From NCBI GenBank assembly GCA_014239855.1, contig JAAZXY010000002.1, forward strand, positions 90,553-154,552: a stretch of DNA of 64,000 bases. The letters are read 5' to 3'. This DNA comes from Acidimicrobiales bacterium. Its GTDB lineage: Bacteria; Actinomycetota; Acidimicrobiia; Acidimicrobiales; MedAcidi-G1. The position numbers and the translations under genes are program-made. Within the stretch, counting starts at the first letter, position 1, and each line of letters starts with the position of its first letter. The notes under the pieces are model-generated. The model was not told where the DNA came from. It saw only the letters and a list, made by a program, of their open reading frames with translations, and did not search any database. This document shows positions 2,243-40,845 of the stretch, one piece after another.

Positions 2243-3961
2243 GTGCACGTCGTCGCCACGGCGGGCCACGTCGACCACGGCAAATCGACCCTCGTCGAGG
2301 CCCTCACCGGGACCGACCCCGACCGGTTCGCCGAGGAGAAGGCCCGGGGCCTGACCATCGACCTGGGGTTCGCGGCGACCACCCTCCCGTCAGGGGCCGC
2401 CCTCTCACTGGTCGACGTCCCCGGCCACGTGCGGTTCCTCAAGAACATGCTGGCCGGCGTGGGGGCCGTCGACGCCTGCCTGTTCGTGGTGGCGGCCACC
2501 GAGGGCTGGAAGCCCCAGTCCGAGGAACACCTCCGGATCCTGGAGCTGCTGGGCATCAGCCACGGCGTGATCGCCCTGACCAAGGTCGGTCCGGCCGACG
2601 AGGACCTGGTCGACCTGGCCCGCCTGGAGATCGCCGAACAGGTGGAGGGCACGTTCCTCGACGGGGCGCCGGTGGTGGCCACCGACGCACCGACCGGGGT
2701 GGGCCTCGACGACCTCCGGGCGGCGTTGGACGATCTCGTGGCCACCACGCCCACCGCGGTGGACCACGGTCGCCCACGCCTGTGGGTGGACCGGGCGTTC
2801 TCAGCCAGGGGAGCCGGCACCGTGGTCACCGGGACGCTGTCCGGCGGAGCCCTGCGGGTCGACGACGAGCTGGCCATCCACCCGGCGGGCACCGCGGTCC
2901 GGGTGCGATCGCTGGAGAACCACCACGCCAGCCACCTCGAGCTGCCTCCCGGCAGCCGGTGCGCGGTCAACCTCGTCGGTGCCGCCCATGACGAGGTGGT
3001 CCGGGGCGACGTCCTCGTCCGGTCCGACCAGTGGCACCACACGACGGTGATCGACGCCTCGCTCCGGGTACTGGATCGGCTCGACCATCCGGTCTCACGC
3101 CGGGGAGCCCACGTCGTCTACCTCGGCTCGGGTGAACATCCGGTGCGGATGCGGATCCTCGGTCCCGACGTGTTGGAGCCCGGGTCCGAGGGATCGGTCC
3201 GGATCCACCTCCCCCGACCGCTCCCGCTGCTACCCGGCGACCGGTTCGTCCTGCGTGAATCGGGACGATCCGAGACGGTCGGTGGTGGCGAGGTACTCGA
3301 TGTCGCCCCCACCGAAAAGGCCTCGACGGCCCGGCCCGACCGATCGGTGGATCGGGTGATCCGCGAGCGGGGCTGGGTGGACGCCGACGAGTTGGAGCGA
3401 CTGACCGGTGAACGTCGCGATCCCGATGTCGACGCCTGGGTGGTCGATCCGGGCGTACTCCACCAGACCATCGAAGGGCTCCGGGCCGCCCTCGAGGACG
3501 CGGGCCCCATGGGCCTCGAGTTGGCCGGGCTCTCACCGTTCGAGCGGGCCACCACCGGCCTGCTGGGTGAAGCGGAGATAGAAGCCGGTCGGCTGGTGAC
3601 GGTGGGGGCCGTCGATCCGCTGGCCGACCACCCGTTCGTGGCCGCCCTGGCCGCCTCGCCGTTCGTCCCTCCCGCACCCGACGGCGTCGACCGGGGTGAG
3701 TTGCGTGAGCTGGTCCGACGGGGCGACGTGATCGAGGTCGAGGGGATCTTCTACGCCGCCTCGGCCATCGGCGAGGCGGCCCGGCTGGCCGCCCGGCTGC
3801 TGGTCGACCAGCCCGACGGGTTCACCGTGTCGGCGTTCCGGGAAGCGGCGGGCAACACCCGCAAGCACGCCATGCCGTTGTTGTCCCATCTGGACGGCAC
3901 GGGTATGACCCGGCGGCGCGGCGATGTCCGGATTGCCGGCCCGCGCCTTCCCGCTCGCTGA
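2243..3961 (+). CDS. selB: Selenocysteine-specific elongation factor SelB
   Basis: SelB is the GTPase that delivers Sec-tRNA(Sec) to UGA codons marked by a SECIS hairpin. The GTG start lies three bases after selA. The G1 motif AGHVDHGKST is at residues 7-16, the G3 motif DVPGH at 58-62 and a TKVG form of the G4 motif at 113-116. Domains II-III occupy roughly residues 170-350 and the rest has the winged-helix character of the SECIS-binding C-terminus. At 572 residues it is a little shorter than the E. coli protein. The TGA stop lies inside the first unit of a 12-bp tandem repeat (3950-4009), so the exact C-terminus may differ between strains. Confidence 0.95.
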   Translation: MHVVATAGHVDHGKSTLVEALTGTDPDRFAEEKARGLTIDLGFAATTLPSGAALSLVDVPGHVRFLKNMLAGVGAVDACLFVVAATEGWKPQSEEHLRILELLGISHGVIALTKVGPADEDLVDLARLEIAEQVEGTFLDGAPVVATDAPTGVGLDDLRAALDDLVATTPTAVDHGRPRLWVDRAFSARGAGTVVTGTLSGGALRVDDELAIHPAGTAVRVRSLENHHASHLELPPGSRCAVNLVGAAHDEVVRGDVLVRSDQWHHTTVIDASLRVLDRLDHPVSRRGAHVVYLGSGEHPVRMRILGPDVLEPGSEGSVRIHLPRPLPLLPGDRFVLRESGRSETVGGGEVLDVAPTEKASTARPDRSVDRVIRERGWVDADELERLTGERRDPDVDAWVVDPGVLHQTIEGLRAALEDAGPMGLELAGLSPFERATTGLLGEAEIEAGRLVTVGAVDPLADHPFVAALAASPFVPPAPDGVDRGELRELVRRGDVIEVEGIFYAASAIGEAARLAARLLVDQPDGFTVSAFREAAGNTRKHAMPLLSHLDGTGMTRRRGDVRIAGPRLPAR

Positions 3962-27468: not shown

Positions 27469-28365
27469 TCAGAACAGGCCCCTCAGAACCCGGCCGGTGG
27501 CCTCGACGACCTGCCGGGCCGCACCGGCGGTTCCGGCCTCGGCCAGCAGGTCACGGTTGAACACCTCCGGACAGACCACCGGATCGGCCCCGATCCCGTG
27601 GAGCAGATCCAGCAGGTGGCCGTGGTCGACCACGCCGGCACCGGGCAGCGGCCGGGCCGCCATGCACTCGGACATCGGGTCGTCCCACGGTTCGGCGCCC
27701 GCGTCACACACCTGGAGCACCGGAACGGCCCAGCCCGGCATCGACGCCAGCGTCTCGGCGTGCCTCCCGTGGGGCCCACCCGGTTGGCGGTGCCAGTGCC
27801 ACGAATCCAACAGCACGCCCACGTTGCGACGGCCGGTGGCCTGCAACAGCTCCCAACAGGTCGTGAGGTCGGGAATCCCCGTCCACGGGAGGAACTCCAC
27901 CACCACGGTCACCCCGGACTCGCCCGCCCGGTCGGCCACCGCGGCGAGATTGGCCACGGCGCGATCCATCGACCCGAGCTCGGGGCCGAGGCACACGGCA
28001 GCCAGGTTGGGCGCAGCGTGTGCTTCGGCGATGGCGATCGACGGCTCGGCATCGGCCACCGCCTCGGCCGGGGTGGCGGCGTCGACCCAGCCGTAGATGG
28101 CCTCCACGCATCCCACGGTCAGACCGGCATCAGCGAACCTGGATCGGATGTCGTCGGCGGACATGCCTCCCGTCGGGCCTCCGCCGTTCAGGACCATCTC
28201 GTGCAGCGTCCACCACGAGAGGCCCACCGCTCCGACTCCGACGAGGGCGTCGACGCACTCCTCGAACGCGGCCCGGTCGATGCTGAACGGGTCGGCCAGC
28301 AGGGTGGACAGACAGGGCTGGAGGCCGCGGCCCCCGATCCGGTGTGGCGTGGTTCCGGAGGTCAT
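27469..28365 (-). CDS. Sugar phosphate isomerase/epimerase-like TIM-barrel protein
   Basis: The 298-residue protein resembles the AP-endonuclease-2/xylose-isomerase-like family (IolE/IolI type). Likely metal residues lie in TVVVEFLPWTGIPD (Glu), VLLDSWHWHRQPGG (Asp and His) and VCPEVFNRDL (Glu). The start ATG overlaps the TetR stop (ATGA), so the pair is one transcriptional unit. It is divergent from the UGSC selenoprotein operon and probably under the same regulator. The substrate is not known; this family also covers epimerases and dehydratases. Confidence 0.82.
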   Translation of the reverse strand: MTSGTTPHRIGGRGLQPCLSTLLADPFSIDRAAFEECVDALVGVGAVGLSWWTLHEMVLNGGGPTGGMSADDIRSRFADAGLTVGCVEAIYGWVDAATPAEAVADAEPSIAIAEAHAAPNLAAVCLGPELGSMDRAVANLAAVADRAGESGVTVVVEFLPWTGIPDLTTCWELLQATGRRNVGVLLDSWHWHRQPGGPHGRHAETLASMPGWAVPVLQVCDAGAEPWDDPMSECMAARPLPGAGVVDHGHLLDLLHGIGADPVVCPEVFNRDLLAEAGTAGAARQVVEATGRVLRGLF

Positions 28366-28958
28366 CGGTCCTTTTCCATTCGGTCCTGTTCCAGTCGGTC
28401 GAGTGGCAGCCGGTCGACGAGCGCGGCGACCACGTGGTCGACGGTGGTCGACGGGTCGGGAGACCGGGTGAGGCGTCCGTCCCGGACGAGGGCGGTGAAG
28501 CCCACGGTGAGGGCCAGTTGCAACCGGATCCAGTGCACCCGCTGGTCGTCGTCCAGACCCAGCGAGGCGAGCACCGTCTGGAGCGGTCGCCCGGCCCGCT
28601 CGACCGCCGTGATCAGGTCGGGGTCGTCACCCGGTGGATGCAGTGAGGCCTCGGATCGACCCGGGTACCGGAGGGCGTATGCCAGGTGGGCCCGGACAAT
28701 GGCCTCCACCGCGTCACGACCCGACCGTCCGACGGCGGCCACCGTGACCACCTCGGCCACCTCTCCGAGGGTCCGGAGGGCCAGAAGACGACGAAGGCCC
28801 TCCACCCCGTCCACATGGGCGTACAACGACTGGCTGCGGATGCCGAGGCGGCCGGCCACCGTCCCCGGTCGGACGGCGTCCACCCGCCCGACCTCGTCGA
28901 GAACGTGCAGGGCGGCCTCGGCCACCTGTTCGGAGGTCACCCCCCGTCGTGCTGCCAT
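28362..28958 (-). CDS. TetR-family transcriptional regulator
   Basis: The 198-residue protein has an N-terminal HTH (VAEAALHVLDEVGRV..., then VAGRLGIRSQSLYAHVDGVEGLRRLLA) typical of TetR repressors. The C-terminal ligand domain shows the WHG-type segment at RVHWIRLQLALTVGFTALV. It is transcribed away from the operon at 29017, with 58 bases between the start codons, and a perfect TGTCTA-N7-TAGACA palindrome covers the start codon of that operon. It therefore probably represses both directions. The ligand is unknown. Confidence 0.88.
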   Translation of the reverse strand: MAARRGVTSEQVAEAALHVLDEVGRVDAVRPGTVAGRLGIRSQSLYAHVDGVEGLRRLLALRTLGEVAEVVTVAAVGRSGRDAVEAIVRAHLAYALRYPGRSEASLHPPGDDPDLITAVERAGRPLQTVLASLGLDDDQRVHWIRLQLALTVGFTALVRDGRLTRSPDPSTTVDHVVAALVDRLPLDRLEQDRMEKDR

Positions 28959-29010: not shown

Positions 29011-29029
29011 TGTCTAATGATTGTAGACA
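29011..29029. promoter_or_regulatory. Palindrome over the start codon of the UGSC operon, candidate TetR operator
   Basis: TGTCTA (29011-29016) and TAGACA (29024-29029) are exact inverted repeats around ATGATTG, which holds the start codon at 29017. Binding here by the divergent TetR protein would block the operon. I see no ribosome site before the ATG, so the operon mRNA may be leaderless or use an adjacent start. Confidence 0.55.
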
Positions 29030-30084
29030 TACCAGCAGACGCCGACCTGGTGGCCGAGATGGCCGCCCACGGTTGGGGCGACGGCCTCCCGCTGGTGGCC
29101 CCCACCCCGGAGCGGGTCGAGGCCATGCTGGCCGGGAGCCCCCACGCCGACCCCGACGAGGTCATCGCCGTCCTGCCTCCCCGCTTCGGCGAGGCCACCC
29201 GACAGATCCTGGCCGTCAATGCCGTGATGGCCGGCTGTCTCCCGGTGCACCTCCCCGTGCTGGAGGCCGCCGTCCGGGCCCTGGCCCGCCCCGAGCTGAA
29301 CCTGCGAGGGGTGAACGCCACCACCCACTGCGTGGCTCCGCTGCTGGTCGTCCACGGCGAGGTGGCCCGCACCGGCGGCTACCACGGTGGCCTCGGTGCC
29401 TTCGGCCCCGGCAACCGGGCCAACGCCACGACCGGTCGGGCCCTCCGACTGGTCCTGTTGCATGTGGCCGGCGCCACCATTGGTGACGGCGATGCCTCGA
29501 CCCAGGGCGGGCCGGCCAAGTACGGCTACTGCGTGGCCGAGAACGCCGAGGCCTCCCCGTGGCCCGCCTACCCGACCACCGTCGGTGTGGACGCCCCCTC
29601 GGCGGTGACCGTGCACTGCGGTGAGGCGCCCCACAACGTCCACGACATGGAGTCCGACGACCCGGCCCGGATCCTCGACAAGGTCGCTTCGGCCATGGCC
29701 ACCACGGCCCAGAACAACGCCTGCATCAGTCAGGGCGAGTACCTGGTGGCCCTGTGCCCCGAGCACGCCGCCACCTGCGCCGAGGCCGGTTGGTCGCGCC
29801 GCGACGTGGCGTCGTACCTCTTCCAGAAGGCCCGCCTTCCGGCTGCCGAGCTGAAGCGGGCCTTCGCCCTGCGGGCCTGGGAACCGTGGATGGAACGGCT
29901 AGGCGACGACGATCCGGCGCCCATGACCGCCCACCCGGACAACATCCGGATCCTCGTGGTGGGCGGTGCCGGAAAGCACAGCTCGGTGATCCCCAGCTGG
30001 GGGATGACCCGCAGCGTCACGGTGCCCGTGACCCTGTCCGTGAATCCTGAGGACGAGCCCAAGGGGGGCGAACCCGCATGTTGA
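29017..30084 (+). CDS. Conserved GDGLP-type protein of the UGSC selenoprotein operon
   Basis: The 355-residue protein opens with a WGDGLPLVAPT segment. Conserved-looking stretches follow (NAVMAGCLPVHLPV, a TTHCVAPLLVVHG segment, then GPGNRANATTGRALRLVLLH, GPAKYGYCVAEN and VHCGEAPHNVHD). Many invariant-type Gly, Asn, Cys and His residues suggest an enzyme. There is no signal peptide or membrane segment. It overlaps the selenoprotein gene by seven bases, so the two are translated together and likely form a complex or a pathway. I recall similar proteins beside UGSC-family selenoproteins in other bacteria, but I cannot name a reaction. Confidence 0.75.
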   Translation: MIVDIPADADLVAEMAAHGWGDGLPLVAPTPERVEAMLAGSPHADPDEVIAVLPPRFGEATRQILAVNAVMAGCLPVHLPVLEAAVRALARPELNLRGVNATTHCVAPLLVVHGEVARTGGYHGGLGAFGPGNRANATTGRALRLVLLHVAGATIGDGDASTQGGPAKYGYCVAENAEASPWPAYPTTVGVDAPSAVTVHCGEAPHNVHDMESDDPARILDKVASAMATTAQNNACISQGEYLVALCPEHAATCAEAGWSRRDVASYLFQKARLPAAELKRAFALRAWEPWMERLGDDDPAPMTAHPDNIRILVVGGAGKHSSVIPSWGMTRSVTVPVTLSVNPEDEPKGGEPAC

Positions 30085-30611
30085 TCCACCGTCCCGACGG
30101 TGCCGTGGCCACGCCTCCGGCGTTACTCGCCCCGTCACCGACCGTCCTGTCCGGCAGGCGCATCGGCCTTCTCGACAACCGCAAGCCCAACGCCGACGTG
30201 TTGCTGGAGCATCTGGCCGAACGACTGGTGGAACGCACCGGCGCCACCGTGGTCCGGACCGAGACCAAGAACGCCGCCATCCCGTGTGACGATCAGGTCC
30301 TGGGCCTGCTGGCCGAAGAGGTCGACGTGATCCTCACCGGAACCGCCGATTGAGGAAGTTGCACGTCGTGGAGTGTCCACGACACCGTGAAGCTCGAAGC
30401 GGCCGGACGGCCCACCGTGCTGGTGGCCACCGGTGCCCTGCGGGAACTGGCCGACCAGACGGCCCACGATCTCGGGTTGGATGACCTCCGGGTCGTCTCG
30501 GTGGCCCACCCGATCGGGGGCGTGGACCCCGATGAGATCCGACGCCGGGCCGACGCCGTGGTCGACGAGGTCCTGGGGCTGTTGACCGGAACCACCGGAG
30601 GGAACTCATGA
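30078..30611 (+). CDS. UGSC-family selenoprotein (in-frame TGA = selenocysteine 92)
   Basis: The reading frame is open from ATG 30078 to a TGA at 30351-30353, then continues in the same frame to a TGA stop at 30609-30611. Both halves look like one protein of 177 residues. The internal TGA is in D-U-G-S-C-T, giving the motif U-G-S-C (Sec92, Cys95) for which the UGSC family is named; another cysteine is at residue 70. The UxxC pair resembles redox motifs. A SECIS-type hairpin follows the TGA by 11 bases. selA and selB lie 26-28 kb away. The C-terminal half has the strands TVLVATGAL and VVSVAHPIGG. Its substrate is unknown. Confidence 0.92.
30365..30383 (+). promoter_or_regulatory. Bacterial SECIS hairpin of the UGSC selenoprotein mRNA
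   Basis: GTCGTGGA (30365-30372) pairs perfectly with TCCACGAC (30376-30383) around a GTG loop. The loop's first base is G and lies 20 bases after the UGA codon, within the spacing expected for bacterial SECIS elements, whose minimal form is a small apical stem-loop with a G at the loop start. It is inside the coding region, as in E. coli fdhF. Confidence 0.85.
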
Positions 30612-31453
30612 CCATCACCATCGACCACACCGGCCGTCGGGCGCTGGTCACCGGGGCGGGAGCCGGCATCGGCCGGGAGATCGCCCGTTGGCTGGCCCGG
30701 GCCGGCGCCACGGTGGCCGTCAACGACCTGGTGTCCGAGCGGGCCGAGGCCACCACCCGGGAGATCAACGCCGAGACCGGTCCGGGTGCGGGAACCGCCA
30801 TTGCCGTGCCCGCCGACTGCCGGGACGACGCGGCCGTCGACGCCATGGTGGCCACCACCGTCGAACGCCTGGGAGGCCTGGACCTGGCCGTCAACAACGT
30901 CGGCATGCTGCCCGCGGGACGCCGCCCCCAGCCCTTCGTGGCCAATCGGGGCGAGGACTGGCGCGACATCGTCGACCAGAACCTGATCGTGGCCGCCCTC
31001 TGCGCCCGGGCCGAGGCCGAGGCGATGCTCAGGGCCGGTACCGGCGGTTCGATCCTGTTCGTGACATCGGGGGAGACGACCCGTCCGGCTCCCTACAACG
31101 CCGTCTACGCGGCGGCCAAGGCCGCGGTCAACCATCTCGTGACCACGATGGCTGTCGAGCTGGGTCCCGAGGGGATCCGGGTCAACGCCATGGCGCCGGG
31201 CACCACGCTGACCGAGACGGTGGCCGCCGCCTTCACCGAGGAACGGGTCGCCGCGTTGGTGGCCTCCACGCCGCTTCGCCGCATGGTCGACCATGACGAG
31301 TTGGCCCGCCTGGCCGTGTTCCTGACCAGTGACCTGGCCCGGTGCATCACCGGCCAGTTCATCCTGGCCGACGCCGGGGCGTTCCTGTCCCGGAGCCGGC
31401 CAGCCAATGACGAGGGCCTGGTCAGCCCTCTCAGCGGGTCAAACGCCCGCTGA
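30608..31453 (+). CDS. Short-chain dehydrogenase/reductase
   Basis: The 281-residue SDR has the cofactor motif TGAGAGIG at residues 15-22, NNVG at about 96-99 (a variant of NNAG), and the catalytic Ser154, Tyr167 and Lys171 (YAAAK). An ATGA overlap couples it to the selenoprotein gene. Asp40 after the second strand (VAVND) suggests NAD(H) rather than NADP(H). The C-terminal 25 residues form a polar tail. In this operon it could supply or reduce a carbonyl intermediate, but the substrate is not evident. Confidence 0.88.
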   Translation: MTITIDHTGRRALVTGAGAGIGREIARWLARAGATVAVNDLVSERAEATTREINAETGPGAGTAIAVPADCRDDAAVDAMVATTVERLGGLDLAVNNVGMLPAGRRPQPFVANRGEDWRDIVDQNLIVAALCARAEAEAMLRAGTGGSILFVTSGETTRPAPYNAVYAAAKAAVNHLVTTMAVELGPEGIRVNAMAPGTTLTETVAAAFTEERVAALVASTPLRRMVDHDELARLAVFLTSDLARCITGQFILADAGAFLSRSRPANDEGLVSPLSGSNAR

Positions 31454-31463
31454 CACCAGCCGA

Positions 31464-32363
31464 TCAGAGCCCCATCTGGTGGTGGGGCGGCAGGTCGAGC
31501 GCACCGATGGCGTCGGCCCGTCGGTGCAACAGATCAACCGTGTCGTCGAGATCCCGGGCGATCACGTACTGACGGTTCGCCACACGGTCCACGACCCAGC
31601 GGCCCATCTCATCCAGATCGGCCACCTTGACATCCCGGCCGCCCTTCTCCAGCAGCCCCTTCATCTCGTCAAAGGTCATCGACACACGCCCGGTGCCACC
31701 CCGGATCCGCTCCAGTTCGGTCGGGCGGTTCCGCTGCGAGGTGAACAGGCCGGTGTCCATCAGGCCTCCGGACGGGTAGAAGACCGACGCCCCGACCTGA
31801 TCGGAGTCCTCGGCCAGTTGATGGGCCAGCGCCTCGGTGAGACAGCTCACCGCGGCCTTGGACGAGGCGTACACGCCGGCGTTGGGTACCGGGGCGAAGC
31901 CGCCGTCGCCCGACGACGTGTTGACCACGTGGCCCGGTTCGCCTGACTCCAGCATCCGGCCCACGAACGACATGATCCCGTTGGCCACGCCGAACACGTT
32001 CACCGAGTAGCACCAACGCCAGTCGTTGGGCTCGTGGGTCCACATCCGTCCGCCACCACCCGAACCGACCCCGGCGTTGTTGAACAACAGGTTGCAGCGA
32101 CCATGGGTGGCGAACACCTGGTCGGCCAACGCATCGGTCGACGAGTCGTCGATCACGTCGGTCACCACGCCGCTGACCCGGCCCGGGTGGCTGGCCGACA
32201 GGGCGGCCACCGTGGTGTCCAGGACGTCCTGTTCGATGTCGGCCACCATCACGGTGGCGCCGGCCTCCAACAGCGCCCGCACGATGCCCCGACCGATCCC
32301 GCTGGCCCCACCGGTGACCACGGCGACCGACCCGGCTACCTCGATGGGAGCCATGTCGCTCAT
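31464..32363 (-). CDS. Short-chain dehydrogenase/reductase
   Basis: The 299-residue SDR shows TGGASGIG at residues 17-24, Asp41 after the second strand (VMVAD, favouring NAD), NNAG at 95-98, Ser150/151 and the YASSK motif (Tyr165, Lys169). The start at 32363 overlaps the stop of the amidohydrolase gene by four bases. It is convergent with the selenoprotein operon's SDR with ten bases between, so the two SDR genes are in different operons. The C-terminus, after the fold, includes a histidine-rich DLPPHHQMGL end. Confidence 0.87.
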   Translation of the reverse strand: MSDMAPIEVAGSVAVVTGGASGIGRGIVRALLEAGATVMVADIEQDVLDTTVAALSASHPGRVSGVVTDVIDDSSTDALADQVFATHGRCNLLFNNAGVGSGGGGRMWTHEPNDWRWCYSVNVFGVANGIMSFVGRMLESGEPGHVVNTSSGDGGFAPVPNAGVYASSKAAVSCLTEALAHQLAEDSDQVGASVFYPSGGLMDTGLFTSQRNRPTELERIRGGTGRVSMTFDEMKGLLEKGGRDVKVADLDEMGRWVVDRVANRQYVIARDLDDTVDLLHRRADAIGALDLPPHHQMGL

Positions 32364-33682
32364 GCCGCGGCCTGCGTCTGGTTCTGGGGCGCCATCCCGG
32401 GGCAGCCCTTGGCCGTGTCGGGAATCTCGGCGTAGTTGATTCCTGAGGCCACGTGGACCTTGGTCGGGCAGTGTTCGTCGGCCAGGGCCTGCAACGCCGC
32501 AACGTCGAACTTGTAGAGCTTCGCCGCGTTGGTGGTCAGCACCTGCGTGGCCTCGTCGGCGGTCATCTCGCCGAAGGTCAACCGCAGATGCTCGTCGGTG
32601 TTGGGGTGGGACCCCTCGATGTGGGGGTAGTCCGATCCCCACATGACCTTGTCGACGCCGATCTCGCGCACCACGGCAGCCTCGGTGGGCCGCAGGAAAC
32701 TGGCCCCCACGTGGCACTGGCGCTGCCAGTACTCCGACGGGGTGAGTGACATACCGGCAACCGCCGCACCGCCGAAGATGGCCTCCGAGCCGTACTTGGA
32801 GGTCTTCATCCGGTCGTAGAAGTCGTCGAGGCGGGCCAGCGTGTCGGGCACCCAGGCCGTGCCGGTCTCGGTGTTCACCCACTGCAGGTCGGGATGACGC
32901 TCGAACACCCCCGAGAACATGAGGTGCCAGAGGGCCCGCTGGCTCCACCAGGTGACCTCCAGCATGAACATGGCCAACGAGGCGGGGAAGTGGTTGCCGA
33001 AGTTGGGGGTGGCCCCACCAGAGTGGTGGTTCAACGGCATGTCACAGGCCTCGGCGGCCGCCCAGATGGGTCGGTAGGCCTTGGCGTACAGCGGCTCGAA
33101 CGGCGAGTCGGGTGGCGTGCCGGGCACGAGAATCCCACCCCGCAGCCCGTTGGCGGCCGCCCACTCGATCTCGGCCACCGACCCCTCGACGTCGCCCAGG
33201 AAGATCTGGGCGATGCCGGCCCGACGCTCCGGGGCCTCGGCCACGAAGTCCAGCAGCCACCGGTTGTGGGCCTTCAGACCGGCCCAACGGTGGCCGTAGT
33301 TGTCGCTGTAGGCCGGAGCCTCGAACTGGGTGGCCGCTGCCGGAGCGAACGGCGGCTGGGTGTTGGGGAACAGCACGGCGGCCACCACCCCGTCGGCCTC
33401 CTGCTCACGCAGGCGCCGGTCGGAGTCGTAGTTCCGGTTTCCGTCGATGACCGGGTCACCGTCCACGCCGACGTTCAGCGGCGAACGCTCCGCGTCCTTG
33501 AAGGCCTCGGCGGTGCGCCGTTCGCCTTCCTCGATACCCCGGGCCCAATCATCGAAGTCGTCGTGGTACTTCTTCTCCAGGTAGTCCTTGTAGTCCCAGA
33601 GGGCGGCACCACAGTGGGTGTCTGCCGAGATGACCACGTGATGTTCAGAGGACGGGTGTTCGGATGTCGGGTTCGCGCTCAT
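32360..33682 (-). CDS. Amidohydrolase-2 family metal-dependent hydrolase
   Basis: The 440-residue TIM-barrel protein belongs to the amidohydrolase-2/ACMSD-like family, which includes decarboxylases and hydrolases acting on aromatic or ring-cleavage acids. Family markers are HVVISADTHCG near the N-terminus, PLNHHSGG, and the late MWGSDYPHIEGSHPNT segment containing the metal Asp. No signal peptide is present. It shares an operon with the SDR (four-base overlap) and follows a second amidohydrolase by 45 bases. The two amidohydrolases are paralogous in layout but clearly different in sequence. The substrate is unknown. Confidence 0.85.
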   Translation of the reverse strand: MSANPTSEHPSSEHHVVISADTHCGAALWDYKDYLEKKYHDDFDDWARGIEEGERRTAEAFKDAERSPLNVGVDGDPVIDGNRNYDSDRRLREQEADGVVAAVLFPNTQPPFAPAAATQFEAPAYSDNYGHRWAGLKAHNRWLLDFVAEAPERRAGIAQIFLGDVEGSVAEIEWAAANGLRGGILVPGTPPDSPFEPLYAKAYRPIWAAAEACDMPLNHHSGGATPNFGNHFPASLAMFMLEVTWWSQRALWHLMFSGVFERHPDLQWVNTETGTAWVPDTLARLDDFYDRMKTSKYGSEAIFGGAAVAGMSLTPSEYWQRQCHVGASFLRPTEAAVVREIGVDKVMWGSDYPHIEGSHPNTDEHLRLTFGEMTADEATQVLTTNAAKLYKFDVAALQALADEHCPTKVHVASGINYAEIPDTAKGCPGMAPQNQTQAAA

Positions 33683-33727
33683 CGGTTTCGCTTCCTTCTC
33701 TCAGATACCGGCGTTCAAATACAGGCT

Positions 33728-35008
33728 CTAGGCGTACTGCATCTCGCAGCCGTACTCGTCCAGCCACCAACGGGCCTTGCGGGTGGCGTCGGCGGGCGTA
33801 CGAACGTCCAACGCCTGACCCAGATCCGCAGGGGTGGGGCCGATCCGGTCGGCCACGACCTGCAGGCCCGCCTCATCCAGGCCGTAGCAGTCGACGGCGT
33901 TGAGCCCCAGCAGGCGCCGGGTGTCCTCGACCGTGGCGTCCTGGAAGTCGTTCTTCAGGCGGGCCCGGGTGTTGGGCCACGACCCCTCGGGGTGCGGGTA
34001 GTCGGTCCCCCACATGAGGGCGTCGATGCCGTTGACGTGCCGGCGACGAACCTCTTCGCGCGACATGGTCGAGGCGCCGATGAACACGTTGGTGCCGAAG
34101 TACTCCGACGGGAGGCGGGTGATCAGGCCCTTCATGCGCGAGCCCATCTTCTTGACCTTGAAGCTGGCTCCGAAGCTCACGTCGGCCTTCCAGAGCAGGT
34201 CGCCGACCCAGAACGACCCGCACTCCACCACGGCGTACCGCAGGTTGGGGAACTGGTCGAACTTGCCGGAGTACAGCAGCTGCCAGAGGATCCGGTGGGT
34301 CCAGAACGGCACCTCGGCCATGTACATGGCCACGTTCTCGCCGTAGGAGGCGAAGTCGGCCTCACCCGAGTGGGTGTGGACGACCAGACCGGCGTCGGCA
34401 CAAGCGGCCCAGAAGCGGTCGTAGTGGTCGGACCCGTAGGCCGGGAAGTCGTGCCACATGGTCGGCACCATGACGCCCCTGATGCCGGGCTTGCCGGCCA
34501 GGGCCTCGACCTCCTTGACGGCCAGATCCACGTCGTGGACGACGGGGATGAGCGCCACACCGGCACGCCTCACCGGATCGGTGGCGCAGAACTCCTCCAG
34601 CCAGCGGTTGTGGGCGCGGGCCCCGCCGAAGGCCTGCCGGGCGTCGGTGATCTGGCCGGCGGCCAGGCCGGCACCGAAGGGCGGCGACTCCTGCCCGGTG
34701 ACAGCGTCACCGTCGGCGAAGATGATCTCTCCGGCCACACCGTCGGCGTCCAGCACCGGGTCGCGCACCTCGGGGTCGTAGGCACCCTGCAGGCCCCACT
34801 CGTTGTCGCCCTCCCACTGCTCGATGAACTCGGCGTTCAGCTCCTCGGCGATCTGGCGGTGCTGGTGGCGTTCGGCCACGTACACGTCGAACTCCTCGTG
34901 CAGCGACGAGTCGAGGTACGGCCGGTACTCCTCGCACTGCAGACCGGCGTGGGTGTCCGACGAGACGACGATGTACGGCTCGCTCCCCGTGCTGACTTCG
35001 CGTTCCAT
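33728..35008 (-). CDS. Amidohydrolase-2 family metal-dependent hydrolase
   Basis: This 426-residue protein starts with VVSSDTHAGLQCEEY, has VVHTHSGEAD in the barrel core and the MWGTDYPHPEGSWPNT segment with the metal Asp. I chose the ATG at 35008 because a GGGGGAG site precedes it by eight bases and the family core begins within ten residues. It heads a three-gene operon (hydrolase, hydrolase, SDR) divergent from a TetR gene. Proteins of this branch often appear with SDRs and acyl-CoA enzymes in actinobacterial catabolic clusters; the substrate is not evident. Confidence 0.85.
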   Translation of the reverse strand: MEREVSTGSEPYIVVSSDTHAGLQCEEYRPYLDSSLHEEFDVYVAERHQHRQIAEELNAEFIEQWEGDNEWGLQGAYDPEVRDPVLDADGVAGEIIFADGDAVTGQESPPFGAGLAAGQITDARQAFGGARAHNRWLEEFCATDPVRRAGVALIPVVHDVDLAVKEVEALAGKPGIRGVMVPTMWHDFPAYGSDHYDRFWAACADAGLVVHTHSGEADFASYGENVAMYMAEVPFWTHRILWQLLYSGKFDQFPNLRYAVVECGSFWVGDLLWKADVSFGASFKVKKMGSRMKGLITRLPSEYFGTNVFIGASTMSREEVRRRHVNGIDALMWGTDYPHPEGSWPNTRARLKNDFQDATVEDTRRLLGLNAVDCYGLDEAGLQVVADRIGPTPADLGQALDVRTPADATRKARWWLDEYGCEMQYA

Positions 35009-35058
35009 CGTGTGCTCCCCCGGGTCCTGCCCGTGCCTGTCGACGACCATCCCTCTTG

Positions 35059-35860: not shown

Positions 35861-38674
35861 CTACCCGTCGTAGTTGTAGGCGGTGGCCTGGGGCTTGACC
35901 GGGCGGGCCATCCAGAGCGGTCGCCGGAGGTTCCCCGGTCCGGGGCCCGGTCGGGTCTTGGCCAGCCACTCCTCGAAGATGCGGTGCGAGGCCGCGGTGT
36001 CGACCACCACATCGCCGTAGGCATCGCCGACCTCGGCCGGACCCACGGTGACCCGCTGCAGCCAGCAGTGCATGCCGCTGATCGGGTCGGGCTGCACGGG
36101 GAAGGTCAGGTTCTGGTGCACGCCGGTGTCGGTCCACCAGATCAGGCCGGTGTCGGGATCGTCGCTCTCGTAGGGCTCTGCGCCGTGCTCGCGCCGCAGC
36201 CGCCAGCGACCATCGTCGTCCCGCTCGATGGATGCCTTGCCGGCCCCCCACGAACGGGCCTCGTCCTCCTCGAGGCGCCACCGACCCATGTGGTGGCTGG
36301 CCGCCACCACCCCGGGTCGGATGCCCTCGGTCCGCCACGACTGGATGACGAAGTGGCCCGTCCGGGTGGTGATCCGCACCAGGCCGTTCTCGTCGATGCC
36401 CAACTTCTCGGCATCACTCGGGTGCAACCACAGCGGATGCCGGTGGCTGATCTCGTTGAGCCACTGGCTGTTGGCTGAACGGGTGTGGATGAGCGTCGGG
36501 ATCCGGAAGGTCGGCACGAGGATGCGTTCGCCGGCCGTCATGTCCAGGTCCTCCCAGTGGACCTGGCTCTTGATGAACGCCGGCATCGAGTACTCGGGCC
36601 AGCCCCAGTCGCGGATGGTCTCCGAGAAGAACTCCAGCTTCTTGGACGGTGTGGGGAAGCCGAACTTCGCCTCTCCGTCGATGTCCACGGCCGGTGAACC
36701 GTCACCGATGAACGGCATGTGGCCGGTGATCTCGTCCAACGAGTCGTGCGAACCGGCGGTTCCCGGTCGGCGCCACACGCCGTTGTCGTCGAGCACCGCA
36801 CCGTTCAGGTCGGCCTCGGTCACCTCACGTTCGTAGACCTGTGCCTGATCGCCGGGCAACGAGAACGAGCCCTTGCGGCGCATGTACTCCAGTGGGGTCA
36901 CGCCCTCGGCGGCCGCCGCCTCGGGCAGGCCGGGGACCGAACCCTCGAACAGCATCGAGTAGTACTCGTCGAGGCTGAGCGGTGTGCCCGGATCGGTCTG
37001 ACTCTCGAACTGCTGGCGGATGCCGAGAGAGCCGTCGGGATCGATGCGCCACGACAGGTCGATCCAGAATTCCTGCTCCTCCCAGACCTCGCCGGGGTTG
37101 GCCTCGTGCGTGCGCTCGAAGGTCTCGCCGTCGAGCTCGCGGTGGCGGCGGGTCACCGGCTGTCGGAAGCCGATCCACCGCCCGTTATGGGTCTCGAAGC
37201 TGGACACGTCGTGACGTTCCGAGGCGATGCCCATGGGAAGCACATAGTCGGCGAACCACGCCGACTCGTTCCACGTCGGGGTGAGCGCCACATGGCAGCC
37301 GATCAGGTCGGGGTCGCGCAGCACCTCCATCCAGGTGAATCCGTCGGGGTTGGTCCACAACGGGTTGTAGACCCGGGTGAAGTAGGTGTCGATGCGTCCC
37401 CGGCCGGCCTTCAGGAAGTGGGGCAGCAGGATCGACAGCTCGTGGTGGCTGAGCGGGTACTCGATGGGCCACTGCATCTCGTTCCACCGGCCCTGGGGCT
37501 CGGGGTGGATGGGGGTGACGGGGATGAACTTGTTCCAACCATTCGCGTTGGTGCCGCCCTCGGTACCCACCGACCCGGTCAGGACGTTCAGGAACTGCAG
37601 GCAGCGGGCCACCATCCAGCCGCCCTCGTTGCCGGCCGACGAGGCCCGCCAGGTGTGCGAGGCGAACTTCCCGAGGCCGCCGCCGATGACCCGGGCCACC
37701 TCCAGGATCTGGGCTTCTTCGATACCGCACACCCGGGCCGCCTCGGCCGGGGTGTAGTCGGCGTACTGGTCGATCAGGGCCTGGCGCACGTTGGCGAACG
37801 TGGGCTCCAGGTCGGGTCGGGCCTCGGCGAGAAAGGTCTCCCAGTTGACCCACCGCTCGAAGAAGGCGGCGTCCCACGTGTCGTCGATGAGCAGCAACCG
37901 GGCGATGGCCAGGAGCATGAACGCCTCGGTCCCCGGCCACGGCGACATCCAGTGGTCGGCCTTGGCCGCCGTGTTGGACAGCCGGGGATCGACGCAGATG
38001 ACCGTGGCGCCGTTCTTCTGGCCCTCGATGATCCGCTGGGCGTGCGGGTTGAAGTAGTGGCCGGCCTCGAGGTGCGACGAGATGAGGAAGATGACCTCGG
38101 CGTTGGCGAAGTCGGCCGACGGGCGGTCGAAGCCCATCCACGAGGCGTAGCCCACCCGTGCGCCGCTGGAGCAGATGTTGGTGTGGCTGTTGTGCCCGTC
38201 GATGCCCCAACTGTGGAGCACCCGCTCCATGTAGCTGTCGTCGCCCATCCGACCGACGTGGTACATGATCTCGTCGTGGCGGTCCTCGCGGAACGCCGTG
38301 CCGATCCGGTCGCCGATCTCGTCGAGCACCTGTTCCCATGAGATCTGCTCCCAGAGCCCTTCACCCCGGTCGCCGACGCGCTTCATGGGATGCAGGATCC
38401 GCTCGGGGTCCTCGACCTGGTTGATGGTGGCCGGACCCTTGGCGCAGTTGCGGCCCCGGCTGGCCGGATGCACCGGGTTTCCCTCGAACTTGGTGATCCT
38501 CCCGGTGTCCTTGTCGACCCAGGCCAGCAGCCCGCAGTTGGCCTCGCAGTTGAAGCAGGTGGTCGGCACCAGTCGGTGGGCGCGACGCACCTTGGTCGGC
38601 CAGGCCAACGGGTCCAGGGACTCGACGTGGTCCCACGACTCCTCGGGCGGGTAGGCGGAAAGGGTCTCGGTCAT
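35861..38674 (-). CDS. Molybdopterin-dependent oxidoreductase, catalytic subunit
   Basis: This 937-residue DMSO-reductase-superfamily protein carries an N-terminal [4Fe-4S] motif (Cys40, 43, 47 and 77). A Cys at about 168 in HTNICSSGARVGY aligns with the molybdenum ligand of Cys-type enzymes such as Nap/Nas, polysulfide or thiosulfate reductases. Later segments include the MGD-binding region LISSHLEAGHYFNP and the C-terminal beta-barrel domain. There is no twin-arginine signal, so it works in the cytosol unless carried across by a partner. It follows the fused ferredoxin/NrfD gene by 33 bases. Substrate is not evident; polysulfide, thiosulfate or an organic oxide are possible. Confidence 0.85.
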   Translation of the reverse strand: MTETLSAYPPEESWDHVESLDPLAWPTKVRRAHRLVPTTCFNCEANCGLLAWVDKDTGRITKFEGNPVHPASRGRNCAKGPATINQVEDPERILHPMKRVGDRGEGLWEQISWEQVLDEIGDRIGTAFREDRHDEIMYHVGRMGDDSYMERVLHSWGIDGHNSHTNICSSGARVGYASWMGFDRPSADFANAEVIFLISSHLEAGHYFNPHAQRIIEGQKNGATVICVDPRLSNTAAKADHWMSPWPGTEAFMLLAIARLLLIDDTWDAAFFERWVNWETFLAEARPDLEPTFANVRQALIDQYADYTPAEAARVCGIEEAQILEVARVIGGGLGKFASHTWRASSAGNEGGWMVARCLQFLNVLTGSVGTEGGTNANGWNKFIPVTPIHPEPQGRWNEMQWPIEYPLSHHELSILLPHFLKAGRGRIDTYFTRVYNPLWTNPDGFTWMEVLRDPDLIGCHVALTPTWNESAWFADYVLPMGIASERHDVSSFETHNGRWIGFRQPVTRRHRELDGETFERTHEANPGEVWEEQEFWIDLSWRIDPDGSLGIRQQFESQTDPGTPLSLDEYYSMLFEGSVPGLPEAAAAEGVTPLEYMRRKGSFSLPGDQAQVYEREVTEADLNGAVLDDNGVWRRPGTAGSHDSLDEITGHMPFIGDGSPAVDIDGEAKFGFPTPSKKLEFFSETIRDWGWPEYSMPAFIKSQVHWEDLDMTAGERILVPTFRIPTLIHTRSANSQWLNEISHRHPLWLHPSDAEKLGIDENGLVRITTRTGHFVIQSWRTEGIRPGVVAASHHMGRWRLEEDEARSWGAGKASIERDDDGRWRLRREHGAEPYESDDPDTGLIWWTDTGVHQNLTFPVQPDPISGMHCWLQRVTVGPAEVGDAYGDVVVDTAASHRIFEEWLAKTRPGPGPGNLRRPLWMARPVKPQATAYNYDG

Positions 38675-38707
38675 TTCAGGCTCCGGTGCGGTGAAGGGAG
38701 GCGGTCG

Positions 38708-40255
38708 CTACGACAGGGGGACCGACTGGCCGGCCCGGACGTAGGCGTCCTCGTAGGCGAACAGGCCGTACAGGGCGGCCAGGGGGACGATGGGCTGGAC
38801 GGGACCGTTCCAGTCGAAGACGAACTCGCCGAACACGATGTCGAGCCCCAGGAAGAGGAGAGCGAAGCCGGTGCAGAACAGCCATTCGCGCCACCGCTTC
38901 TTCTGCGCCCCGTGGCGAAGGTCGGCCAGGGCCATGGTCACGTGCCGGGAGTGGCCACCCCGGACCTCGGCTCCGACCAGCGCGGCGTTGGCCACCAGGC
39001 CAGCCAGGAACAGCCACTTGACCGACTCGTGGGACGGCACGTCGAAGAACTGGTCGAGCAGCGACCACGAGGCCCCACCGGCCATGACCGCCTGGGCCAG
39101 TAGGACGGGCAGCAGCAGCGGTTCCTGCCAGAGGTCCCGACCTTCGCATTGACCGAACAGGAAGGCTGTGTAGCCCGCGGTACCCAGGGCCAGCAGCACG
39201 GTTGGCACCACCAGCACCGGCAGCACACCGCCGACATCGGCCAGACCAGCCACCCACCAGGCGCCCAGACAGGCGGCGAAGGCGCCCAGGATCCAGGCCC
39301 CCTTGACCAGCCACGACGTCGAGTTGCCCCTGGTCAGCAGGTACAGGAACCGTGTGGGCTGCTTGAGGTCGCCGACCAGCAGCACGCCGGTCAGGGCCAG
39401 GAAGACACCGGCCACCACGGGTGGAACCACGCCGACCACCGACTGTTCGTCACCGTGTCCGAGTAGCACCAGTAGCGAGGCGACCAGCATCACGCCGGCC
39501 GCGATGGCCTTGGTGACCAGGTAGCCCGACACCATCGAGCCCCATACCGGCGGATGCGCGGTGGTGTAGGCGGTCCGGGCCATGGCCTCGCCGTCGTCCC
39601 GGGTGGGTGCGGCGGTCAGGGCCACCGGGGTGGGGGTGGAGTGGCCGGGGGTGGTGTCGGCCCAGATCAACCCGTCGTCGGAGATGGCCGAGGCCAGCGG
39701 GTCCAACGACGACGCGGTGGCTCCGGTGTAGATGACCTTGGGGCGGGTGTTCTGCTCGGGCGACCGCACCAGTCCACCTTCGGCGTGCAGGCGGCTGATC
39801 TCGCTGTCCGGATCGTCGAGGTCGCCCACCCGGATGGCCTGGGTGGGGCACACGATCACGCATGACGGCTCGAGGCCGTCTTCGATCCGGTGGTTGCAGA
39901 AGTTGCACTTGTGGGCGGTCTTGGTCTCCGGGTTGAGATAGATGGCGTCGTACGGGCAGGCGTTCATGCACGCCTTGCAGCCGATGCAGTCGTCGTCCTG
40001 GAAGTCGACCACCCCGTTGTCGGCCCGGTGCAGCGCCGAGGTGGGACAGATGGTCATGCACGGCGCGTCCTCACAGTGGTTGCAGCGCATGACCGAAAAG
40101 AGACGGTCGGTATCGGGGTGGGTGCCCGTCTCCACGTACTTGAGCCAGGTGCGGTTCACCCCGATGGGCACGTCGTGCTCGCTCTTGCAGGCCACCGTGC
40201 AGGCATGGCAGCCGATGCAGCTGCCGGAGTCCAGGACGAATCCGAGCCGGGTCAC
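38708..40255 (-). CDS. Fused four-cluster ferredoxin / NrfD-type membrane anchor
   Basis: The 515-residue protein joins an Fe-S subunit to a membrane subunit. Residues 13-137 carry four cysteine clusters (CIGCHACTVAC, CNHCEDAPCMTIC, CIGCKACMNAC and CNFC...CVIVC), as in DmsB/PsrB. Residues about 235-515 hold eight or more hydrophobic segments of the NrfD/PsrC quinol-binding type. A polar linker joins them. The GTG start at 40255 overlaps the TetR stop (GTGA). With the catalytic subunit downstream this makes a quinone-linked two-gene complex. Separate B and C genes are the usual form, so the fusion is of note. Confidence 0.85.
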   Translation of the reverse strand: MTRLGFVLDSGSCIGCHACTVACKSEHDVPIGVNRTWLKYVETGTHPDTDRLFSVMRCNHCEDAPCMTICPTSALHRADNGVVDFQDDDCIGCKACMNACPYDAIYLNPETKTAHKCNFCNHRIEDGLEPSCVIVCPTQAIRVGDLDDPDSEISRLHAEGGLVRSPEQNTRPKVIYTGATASSLDPLASAISDDGLIWADTTPGHSTPTPVALTAAPTRDDGEAMARTAYTTAHPPVWGSMVSGYLVTKAIAAGVMLVASLLVLLGHGDEQSVVGVVPPVVAGVFLALTGVLLVGDLKQPTRFLYLLTRGNSTSWLVKGAWILGAFAACLGAWWVAGLADVGGVLPVLVVPTVLLALGTAGYTAFLFGQCEGRDLWQEPLLLPVLLAQAVMAGGASWSLLDQFFDVPSHESVKWLFLAGLVANAALVGAEVRGGHSRHVTMALADLRHGAQKKRWREWLFCTGFALLFLGLDIVFGEFVFDWNGPVQPIVPLAALYGLFAYEDAYVRAGQSVPLS

Positions 40256-40845
40256 GGGGCCACCGGAACCATCTGGGCCACCGGAACCATCTGGTGGATG
40301 CCGGCACACAGCAGGTCGACCAGGCGGTCGAAGCTGTCGTCCAGGTCGACCGGGTGGGGGTGGCCGTCACCCGACTCGAGGTGGGCAAAACCGTGGAGGG
40401 CGCTGCGCATCGACCGGGCGGCATGTACCCGGTCGTCGTCGGCCAGGCCGTAGGCGACCAGGGCCTGGCCCAGGACGGCCACCACCCGCTCGACGGCCTG
40501 TTCCAGTTCGGGGTCACCGGCGCACGGGTAGCGGTCGGTGGCTGCGTAGAGGCCCGGATGGTCGTTCACCATGACCCTCCAGGCCCGGCCCATGGCCCGG
40601 ACGGCATCGTCGCCGGCCAAGCCGACGGCGGCTTCGCTGAGTCGACTGGCCAGGATCTCCCGACCCCGGAGGCCCAGGGCCCGGATGAGGGCGTCGTAAC
40701 TGTCGACGTGCCGGTAGAGGGCGGGCTGGCGGACCCCCAGGCGTTCGGCCACCCGGGTCAGGGTCACGGCGTCGAGGCCCTCGGCGTCAGCCAGTTCGGC
40801 CGCCGAGTCCACGACCTGTTCGGTGTCCAACGTTCGGCGGCTCAT
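40252..40845 (-). CDS. TetR-family transcriptional regulator
   Basis: The 197-residue protein has the TetR HTH (VVDSAAELADAEGLDAVTLTRVAERLGVRQPALYRHVDSYDALIRA split by the usual turn) and a TetR_C_33-like ligand domain. It heads the molybdoenzyme operon, with a GTGA overlap into the ferredoxin/NrfD gene, an uncommon place for a regulator and consistent with autoregulation. A 15-bp palindrome lies 15 bases upstream of its start. The C-terminal twelve residues are coded by a duplicated 18-mer (VAQMVP-VAQMVP-type repeat). Confidence 0.87.
   Translation of the reverse strand: MSRRTLDTEQVVDSAAELADAEGLDAVTLTRVAERLGVRQPALYRHVDSYDALIRALGLRGREILASRLSEAAVGLAGDDAVRAMGRAWRVMVNDHPGLYAATDRYPCAGDPELEQAVERVVAVLGQALVAYGLADDDRVHAARSMRSALHGFAHLESGDGHPHPVDLDDSFDRLVDLLCAGIHQMVPVAQMVPVAP
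40257..40292. repeat. 18-bp tandem duplication at the tetR 3' end
   Basis: Two exact copies of GGGCCACCGGAACCATCT encode the C-terminal repeat of the TetR protein and lie just upstream of the GTG start of the ferredoxin/NrfD gene. The duplication spaces that start's ribosome-site region. Confidence 0.9.

Follow-up and report, generated by a model that had tools for sequence, protein, structure and literature searches.

What is made from a gene whose reading frame is interrupted by a single TGA, and what might its product do? The question is raised by positions 30078–30611 (forward strand) of a 64,000-nucleotide stretch from an Acidimicrobiales bacterium (assembly GCA_014239855.1, contig JAAZXY010000002.1, positions 90,553–154,552), here called the window, meaning the whole stretch of DNA that was analyzed. 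The source genome comprises 2.35 Mb in 144 contigs, with a completeness of 83%. An earlier interpretation made from the letters alone (the sequence-only reading) had proposed that these positions encode a UGSC family selenoprotein, with selenocysteine (Sec, U) at the TGA. The explanation that best accounts for all of the observations below, and that we consider likely, is that this predicted Sec-decoded protein acts as the selenol subunit in an enzyme of two subunits, the other of which would be the product of the gene immediately upstream.

The sequence-only reading was right that UGSC selenoproteins had already been described. They were in print by 2008 and are covered by Pfam and NCBIfam models. 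Passages of the 2008 ocean survey report 255 Sec sequences, place UGSC among the commonest selenoproteins of ocean surveys, suggest a thioredoxin fold for it, and describe its fusion to a domain termed "Unknown_1" (PMC2398784). Passages of other papers likewise cover the family along with its motif and abundance (PMC9312934, PMC5029168, PMC5330540, PMC7539508, PMC9402790, and PMC13188914), and a 2026 review, in the portion available, lists UGSC among families of largely uncharacterized function (PMC13188914). The passages from these open-licence papers describe neither linkage to a partner gene nor a relation to GrdB and PrdB. The kind of protein is therefore already known; what is added here is the partner linkage and, as a sharper hypothesis, the GrdB/PrdB relation.

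A Predicted Selenocysteine Codon in a UGSC Gene

Translation through the TGA at 30351–30353 (+) yields a single frame of 177 residues (M...LTGTAD-U-GSC...TTGGNS) with one internal TGA, bearing out the proposal of two halves in one frame that are parted by this codon and followed by G-S-C. The gene (30078–30611, +) thus contains 177 codons, including UGA at codon 92, and ends at the TGA stop at 30609–30611. Its product exceeded both curated cut-offs across the domain, scoring 164.2 bits against PF24696 (cut-off 25; E = 4e-48) and 141.3 bits against NF041046 (cut-off 125; E = 2.2e-41), which substantiates the family assignment. The motif reads U92-G93-S94-C95; among 59 aligned proteins, G93, S94, and C95 are invariant and position 92 is Cys in at least 90%, and the predicted Sec codon is aligned to the Cys of CGSC homologues.

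A protein database search found Cys homologues with as much as 59% identity across 96% of the query, and both halves align with them as one protein through the site, as the sequence-only reading had suggested should be checked. A single homologue, P0065, carries Trp in place of this Cys. The GSC motif is absent from 17 of 91 database homologues; the sequences of 13 among them run precisely to ...LTGTAD, where the last residue is the one preceding the UGA. That homologues should stop at the TGA had been named in advance as grounds for rejecting the proposal, and such proteins do exist; because the frame continues in the relatives examined at the DNA level, however, the 13 short proteins are interpreted as products of gene prediction in which the UGA was treated as a stop codon. 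The TGA is kept in L119 and L121, the same-genus loci most similar to the window gene (89% and 73% identical, respectively). Changes between the window and L119 at codon positions 1/2/3 number 3/2/18 before the TGA and 6/3/28 after it, and for L121 the counts are 10/8/26 and 9/16/31. The third-position bias in the comparison with L119 indicates that purifying selection acts downstream of the TGA. More widely, a UGSC match was present in 138 of 395 drawn Acidimicrobiia genomes (above the cut-off in 102), and among the matches listed all but eight hold exactly one internal TGA. The family match, the Cys homologues, and the same-genus TGA with a conserved frame beyond it support the decoding that had been inferred, and 30078–30611 is almost certainly a selenoprotein gene in which the UGA is predicted to be read as Sec.

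A Hairpin Conserved in UGA Genes

A selenocysteine insertion sequence (SECIS)-type hairpin occupies 30365–30383 (+), with an eight-pair stem (30365–30372 with 30376–30383) and a GUG loop (30373–30375). The stem begins 11 bases after the UGA and the loop G lies 20 bases after it; the place, stem, loop, and spacing are all as first described. In a shuffle control, 13 of 200 shuffles folded as well (z = -1.45), and the exact eight-pair stem arose in 51 of 5,000 synonymous resamplings. Because the window's sequence does not stand out in fold energy by itself, the SECIS claim is carried by the comparison among relatives. Identical 60-base stretches were counted once, which reduced the Cys matches from 71 to 65 and left the 48 UGA matches unchanged; the 65 still include two chance matches in other frames, the second ones in L059 and L063, and L134, with no UGSC motif match, falls outside the count. 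The full set of eight stem pairs is intact in 42 of the 48 UGA loci versus 2 of the 65 distinct Cys stretches.

When the UGA is numbered as bases 1–3, the stem pairs 15–22 with 26–33, and pairs 15-33, 18-30, and 21-27 join third codon positions. These three were kept in 47, 48, and 48 of the 48 distinct UGA loci and in 28, 30, and 40 of the 65 Cys stretches. The comparison was also made among genes matched in their residues (GSCT, then S/A/T, W/Y/C, then SVHD). All three pairs were kept in 42/42 matched UGA genes versus 2/11 matched Cys genes, 7 of which have Tyr at the variable residue; the Fisher p of 1.2e-8 is overstated since the sequences are related. At pair 21-27, the third position on the 5' side also decides between Trp and Cys, so only a change on the valine side is synonymous. 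In the 42 matched UGA genes, TGG always occurs with GTC (11 genes) and TGC always with GTG (31 genes), so that a G-C pair is swapped to C-G through a synonymous valine change; among the 11 matched Cys genes, three of the four TGG genes carry GTG. The loop is GUN in 48/48 UGA loci, and its serine codon is AGT in 42/42 matched UGA genes and 0/11 matched Cys genes. Conservation of the predicted hairpin across relatives clearly exceeds chance and is decisive comparatively. Pairing kept solely in UGA genes makes this a clean comparative case for a coding-region SECIS.

Selenocysteine Machinery

As the sequence-only reading had noted, the window also contains selA (L-seryl-tRNA(Sec) selenium transferase; 824–2239, +; TIGR00474, 3.2e-116) and selB (Sec-specific elongation factor; 2243–3961, +; TIGR00475, 1.9e-83), both over their cut-offs, with a winged-helix domain (PF09107) in SelB. 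A tRNA-Sec (67.5 bits, anticodon TCA) lies on the same contig, 12.5 kb before the window (C67:77914). ARAGORN assigned a second match to the tRNA-Sec model (48.6 bits) to tRNA-Ser. The genome also carries selD (L021, G000:C111:72317-73237), with one in-frame TGA inside the match; its product is possibly itself a Sec-containing selenophosphate synthetase. The UGA, the conserved SECIS-type hairpin, whose function is putative, and the Sec machinery together place the window gene among the Sec forms of the family.

The same genome encodes a second UGSC selenoprotein (L010, G000:C44:30068-33496; UGSC at 1402–1953), also with an in-frame TGA. It is 30% identical to the window protein, and its own partner gene overlaps its start. 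A PrdB-like gene (L012, G000:C52, about 1351–2331) has an in-frame TGA in the motif U-P-V-C-H-Q. Its product matched TIGR04483 at 8.1e-43 (146.6 bits, under the cut-off of 300), and it is a probable further selenoprotein gene.

A Partner Gene Accompanies UGSC

The gene directly upstream (29017–30084, +; 355 aa) is part of the same unit; the sequence-only reading had omitted it, and the rest of that observation was confirmed. Its end overlaps the UGSC start (ATGTTGA), and the UGSC end in turn overlaps the start of the downstream gene (ATGA), which suggests translational coupling of the three genes. A scan of Pfam and NCBIfam assigned the partner to no family, with one off-target Pfam row and no NCBIfam model at E <= 0.1. 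Homologues numbered 4,242 among the 7,997 candidates scored.

Linkage was assessed in Cys loci taken from one genome per species, by a search pattern that finds Cys forms only, and in UGA loci; distances refer to the matched stretches and not to the ends of the genes. All 66 Cys loci contain a partner homologue. In 64 of them it is on the same strand as UGSC and at most 300 bases away, or it overlaps UGSC; in the other two it is further off. It shares one reading frame with UGSC in 28 of the 66. A same-strand partner at most 300 bases away also occurs in 42/48 UGA loci, a total that divides into 32/32 in L010, L011, and L089–L118 and 10 of the 16 UGA loci picked among L119–L138. The loci L089–L118 are the 30 best scoring and mostly resemble the second UGSC of the genome, not that of the window; L135–L137 carry Cys, and the matches in L135 and L136 duplicate those in L029 and L023. 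The domain called "Unknown_1" in the 2008 fusion may be this partner, or it may be another domain.

The window's protein was aligned with 102 of 106 partner matches, and the near-invariant residues in these 103 sequences include D22, G23, C74, N136, R141, D159, K168, C172, E175, and H250. The structural model of the partner (predicted local distance difference test score [pLDDT] 85.9) has no convincing structural relative. Because the partner accompanies UGSC in most relatives, the two are likely subunits of one enzyme; gene linkage and fusion make it probable that they form a functional complex.

A Probable Relation of UGSC to the C-Terminal Domain of GrdB and PrdB

The AlphaFold2 model of UGSC, built with 59 sequences (pLDDT 92.7), alternates strand and helix five times, and U92 directly precedes the helix 93–108. 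The predicted structure is an α/β (Rossmann-like) domain with U92 at a helix N terminus. The order of a thioredoxin fold (strand-helix-strand-helix-strand-strand-helix) was not found, as the model is without the β-β hairpin.

The GrdB model TIGR01917 was matched by 30/59 UGSC proteins at E <= 0.01 (best 5.6e-6). The match of P0215, the second UGSC of the genome, had an E value of 1.2e-4 and fell in the C-terminal part of the model (positions 333–420 of 431). No full-length match to the GrdB/PrdB family (TIGR01917, TIGR01918, TIGR04483, and PF07355) above the curated cut-off was obtained, P0215 reaching 21.2 bits versus a cut-off of 602.2, and UGSC is therefore not classed under GrdB. Profile–profile comparison of UGSC with 31 PrdB-like proteins gave a probability of 53.7% (E = 1.3e-4), rising to 75.3% (E = 2.5e-5) with a wider UGSC profile. 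Controls gave 2.3% for a short-chain dehydrogenase/reductase (SDR) profile, 0.9% for the partner profile, and at most 0.2% for 20 column-shuffled profiles. In the hhalign alignment, C92-G-S-C95 is set onto C174-P-V-C177 of the PrdB-like profile. These profile similarities make homology between UGSC and the selenocysteine domain at the C terminus of GrdB/PrdB probable. Four Cys-type UGSC proteins of ~270 aa (P0030, P0032, P0034, and P0036) have an extra C-terminal domain with a conserved CAECVMP motif, which may be NifU-like, judging from a weak PDB row (E = 1.2).

Neighboring Genes

The probable third gene of the operon (30608–31453, +) encodes an SDR (PF13561/PF00106), and its start overlaps the UGSC stop (ATGA). 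Homologues at least 45% identical occur in 25 of 117 other UGSC loci, 30 of which have only 1.5 kb of flank, and in 20 they lie directly downstream of UGSC. A TetR-type regulator (28362–28958, -; PF13305) is divergent from the operon, with homologues near the unit in L025, L039–L042, L119, and L121. Further neighbor clusters, listed only if seen in at least four loci, include amidohydrolases, luciferase-type monooxygenases, class III coenzyme A (CoA) transferases, acyl-CoA ligases and dehydrogenases, and TetR, FCD, and LysR regulators. Thioredoxin or its reductase is encoded near UGSC in 8 of the 66 Cys loci: four of these (L056, L060, L062, and L070) have the reductase, and the other four (L044, L059, L063, and L064) have thioredoxin without it; L063 and L064 overlap on a single contig. 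As judged from gene content, these neighbors fit an enzyme for organic-acid breakdown that is re-reduced by thioredoxin; they name no substrate.

In three genomes of one genus, at L122, L123 (4695–5906, -), and L129, a gene resembling dimethylsulfoniopropionate demethylase (DmdA/GcvT) lies between the partner and UGSC; the family search covers the L123 copy. The gene offers a lead to the substrate. In the window itself, two tandem amidohydrolase-2 genes (32360–35050, -) adjoin the operon and are conserved in the same-genus loci L119 and L121. Further along (35861–40309, -), a molybdopterin oxidoreductase gene stands next to a Fer4/NrfD gene, a polysulfide-reductase-like pair by Pfam.

Discussion

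In the mechanism proposed for the two-subunit enzyme, the partner would bind and activate an organic substrate, the selenolate of U92 would attack it, and a carbon–heteroatom bond would be broken. C95 would then resolve the intermediate by closing an Se–S bond, thioredoxin would reduce that bond and so restore UGSC, and the SDR encoded next might act on the substrate or the product. The partner is proposed to hold the substrate because of the analogy with glycine reductase, in which, according to passages of the 2026 review, GrdB binds glycine, ammonia is released, and electrons come from thioredoxin (PMC13188914). On that analogy, reductive bond cleavage by UGSC is suggested tentatively.

Several observations weigh against this interpretation. 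Decoding of the TGA at 30351–30353 is predicted from sequence only, and the hairpin's fold energy, taken from the window sequence alone, was equalled or beaten in 664 of 2,000 synonymous resamplings. The link to GrdB rests on the family: 29 of the 59 UGSC members have no TIGR01917 match, and the window protein is among those without one at E <= 0.01, with a weak match to GrdF (E = 0.006) only. The profile–profile probability is just 75%, and no GrdB or PrdB chain is among the PDB rows listed, whether by sequence or by fold. Profile comparison produced no alignment of the partner with PrdB, and the NCBIfam scan at E <= 0.1 gave no sign of GrdE/PrdA (pyruvoyl) in it; GrdA and GrdC were not searched. 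Among UGA loci, the partner is 1.3–3.7 kb away in three (L122, L123, and L129), is not within 300 bases in two whose loci are cut by a contig end (L130 and L138), and is missing from the 5.1-kb contig of L125. The examined stretch of 58/66 Cys loci contains no thioredoxin gene.

The strongest rival reverses the roles of the two proteins: the partner would itself be the catalyst, as a hydrolase or lyase, with UGSC as an auxiliary subunit for redox or repair that maintains the partner's two conserved cysteines in reduced form or supplies a cofactor; selenium would then never meet the substrate. This is unlikely, as the UxxC of UGSC aligns onto that of PrdB-like proteins and the partner resembles known folds too weakly for a function to be drawn from them. 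A general thiol–disulfide exchanger, i.e., a thioredoxin-fold oxidoreductase with UxxC as passages of the 2008 paper suggest (PMC2398784), would suit both the typical redox motif and the thioredoxin genes in several loci, but it is improbable given a confident model of five strands, each followed by a helix, that lacks the β-β hairpin, and a profile similarity that points instead to GrdB/PrdB; nor is thioredoxin among the 50 Foldseek or 50 VIA rows listed, an absence that does not exclude it. That the UGA is a real stop in a truncated gene or pseudogene, with a downstream half that is decaying or a separate gene, is scarcely credible, for although a standard annotator stops there and the 13 database proteins (97 to 129 residues) end right before the site, change after the TGA is biased to third positions, Cys homologues run through it, the TGA occurs with the conserved hairpin in 48 loci, and the genome has a complete Sec machinery.

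Should both the linkage to the partner and the kinship with GrdB/PrdB prove right, the function of UGSC becomes testable and the printed suggestion of a thioredoxin fold would be corrected. More speculatively, UGSC and its partner could represent an undescribed class of selenol-dependent reductases or lyases that joins the selenocysteine domain of GrdB/PrdB to a new substrate subunit. Such a class would be spread over Acidimicrobiia and other actinobacteria as well as sphingomonads and haloarchaea, would occur as UGA, Cys, and fused forms, and would serve mostly organic-acid breakdown, not amino-acid fermentation.

Within the known UGSC family (NF041046 and PF24696), nothing sets the window member apart; it shares the curated score, the U-G-S-C motif, and the mixture of Sec and Cys forms. 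The PrdB-like selenoprotein of the same genome (L012) likewise has an in-frame TGA within a UxxC motif, but its motif is U-P-V-C-H-Q, the protein is longer, and its neighbors are different. Compared with GrdB (glycine reductase selenoprotein B) and PrdB (D-proline reductase), UGSC corresponds to the C-terminal domain only and scores far under the cut-offs, its partner is not recognizable as GrdE/PrdA, and its loci are mostly actinobacterial, proteobacterial, and haloarchaeal, with one (L067) from Gracilibacteraceae. What UGSC has in common with GrdB and PrdB is a UxxC that occupies the corresponding position in a related C-terminal domain, together with a second subunit and thioredoxin as the likely electron source.
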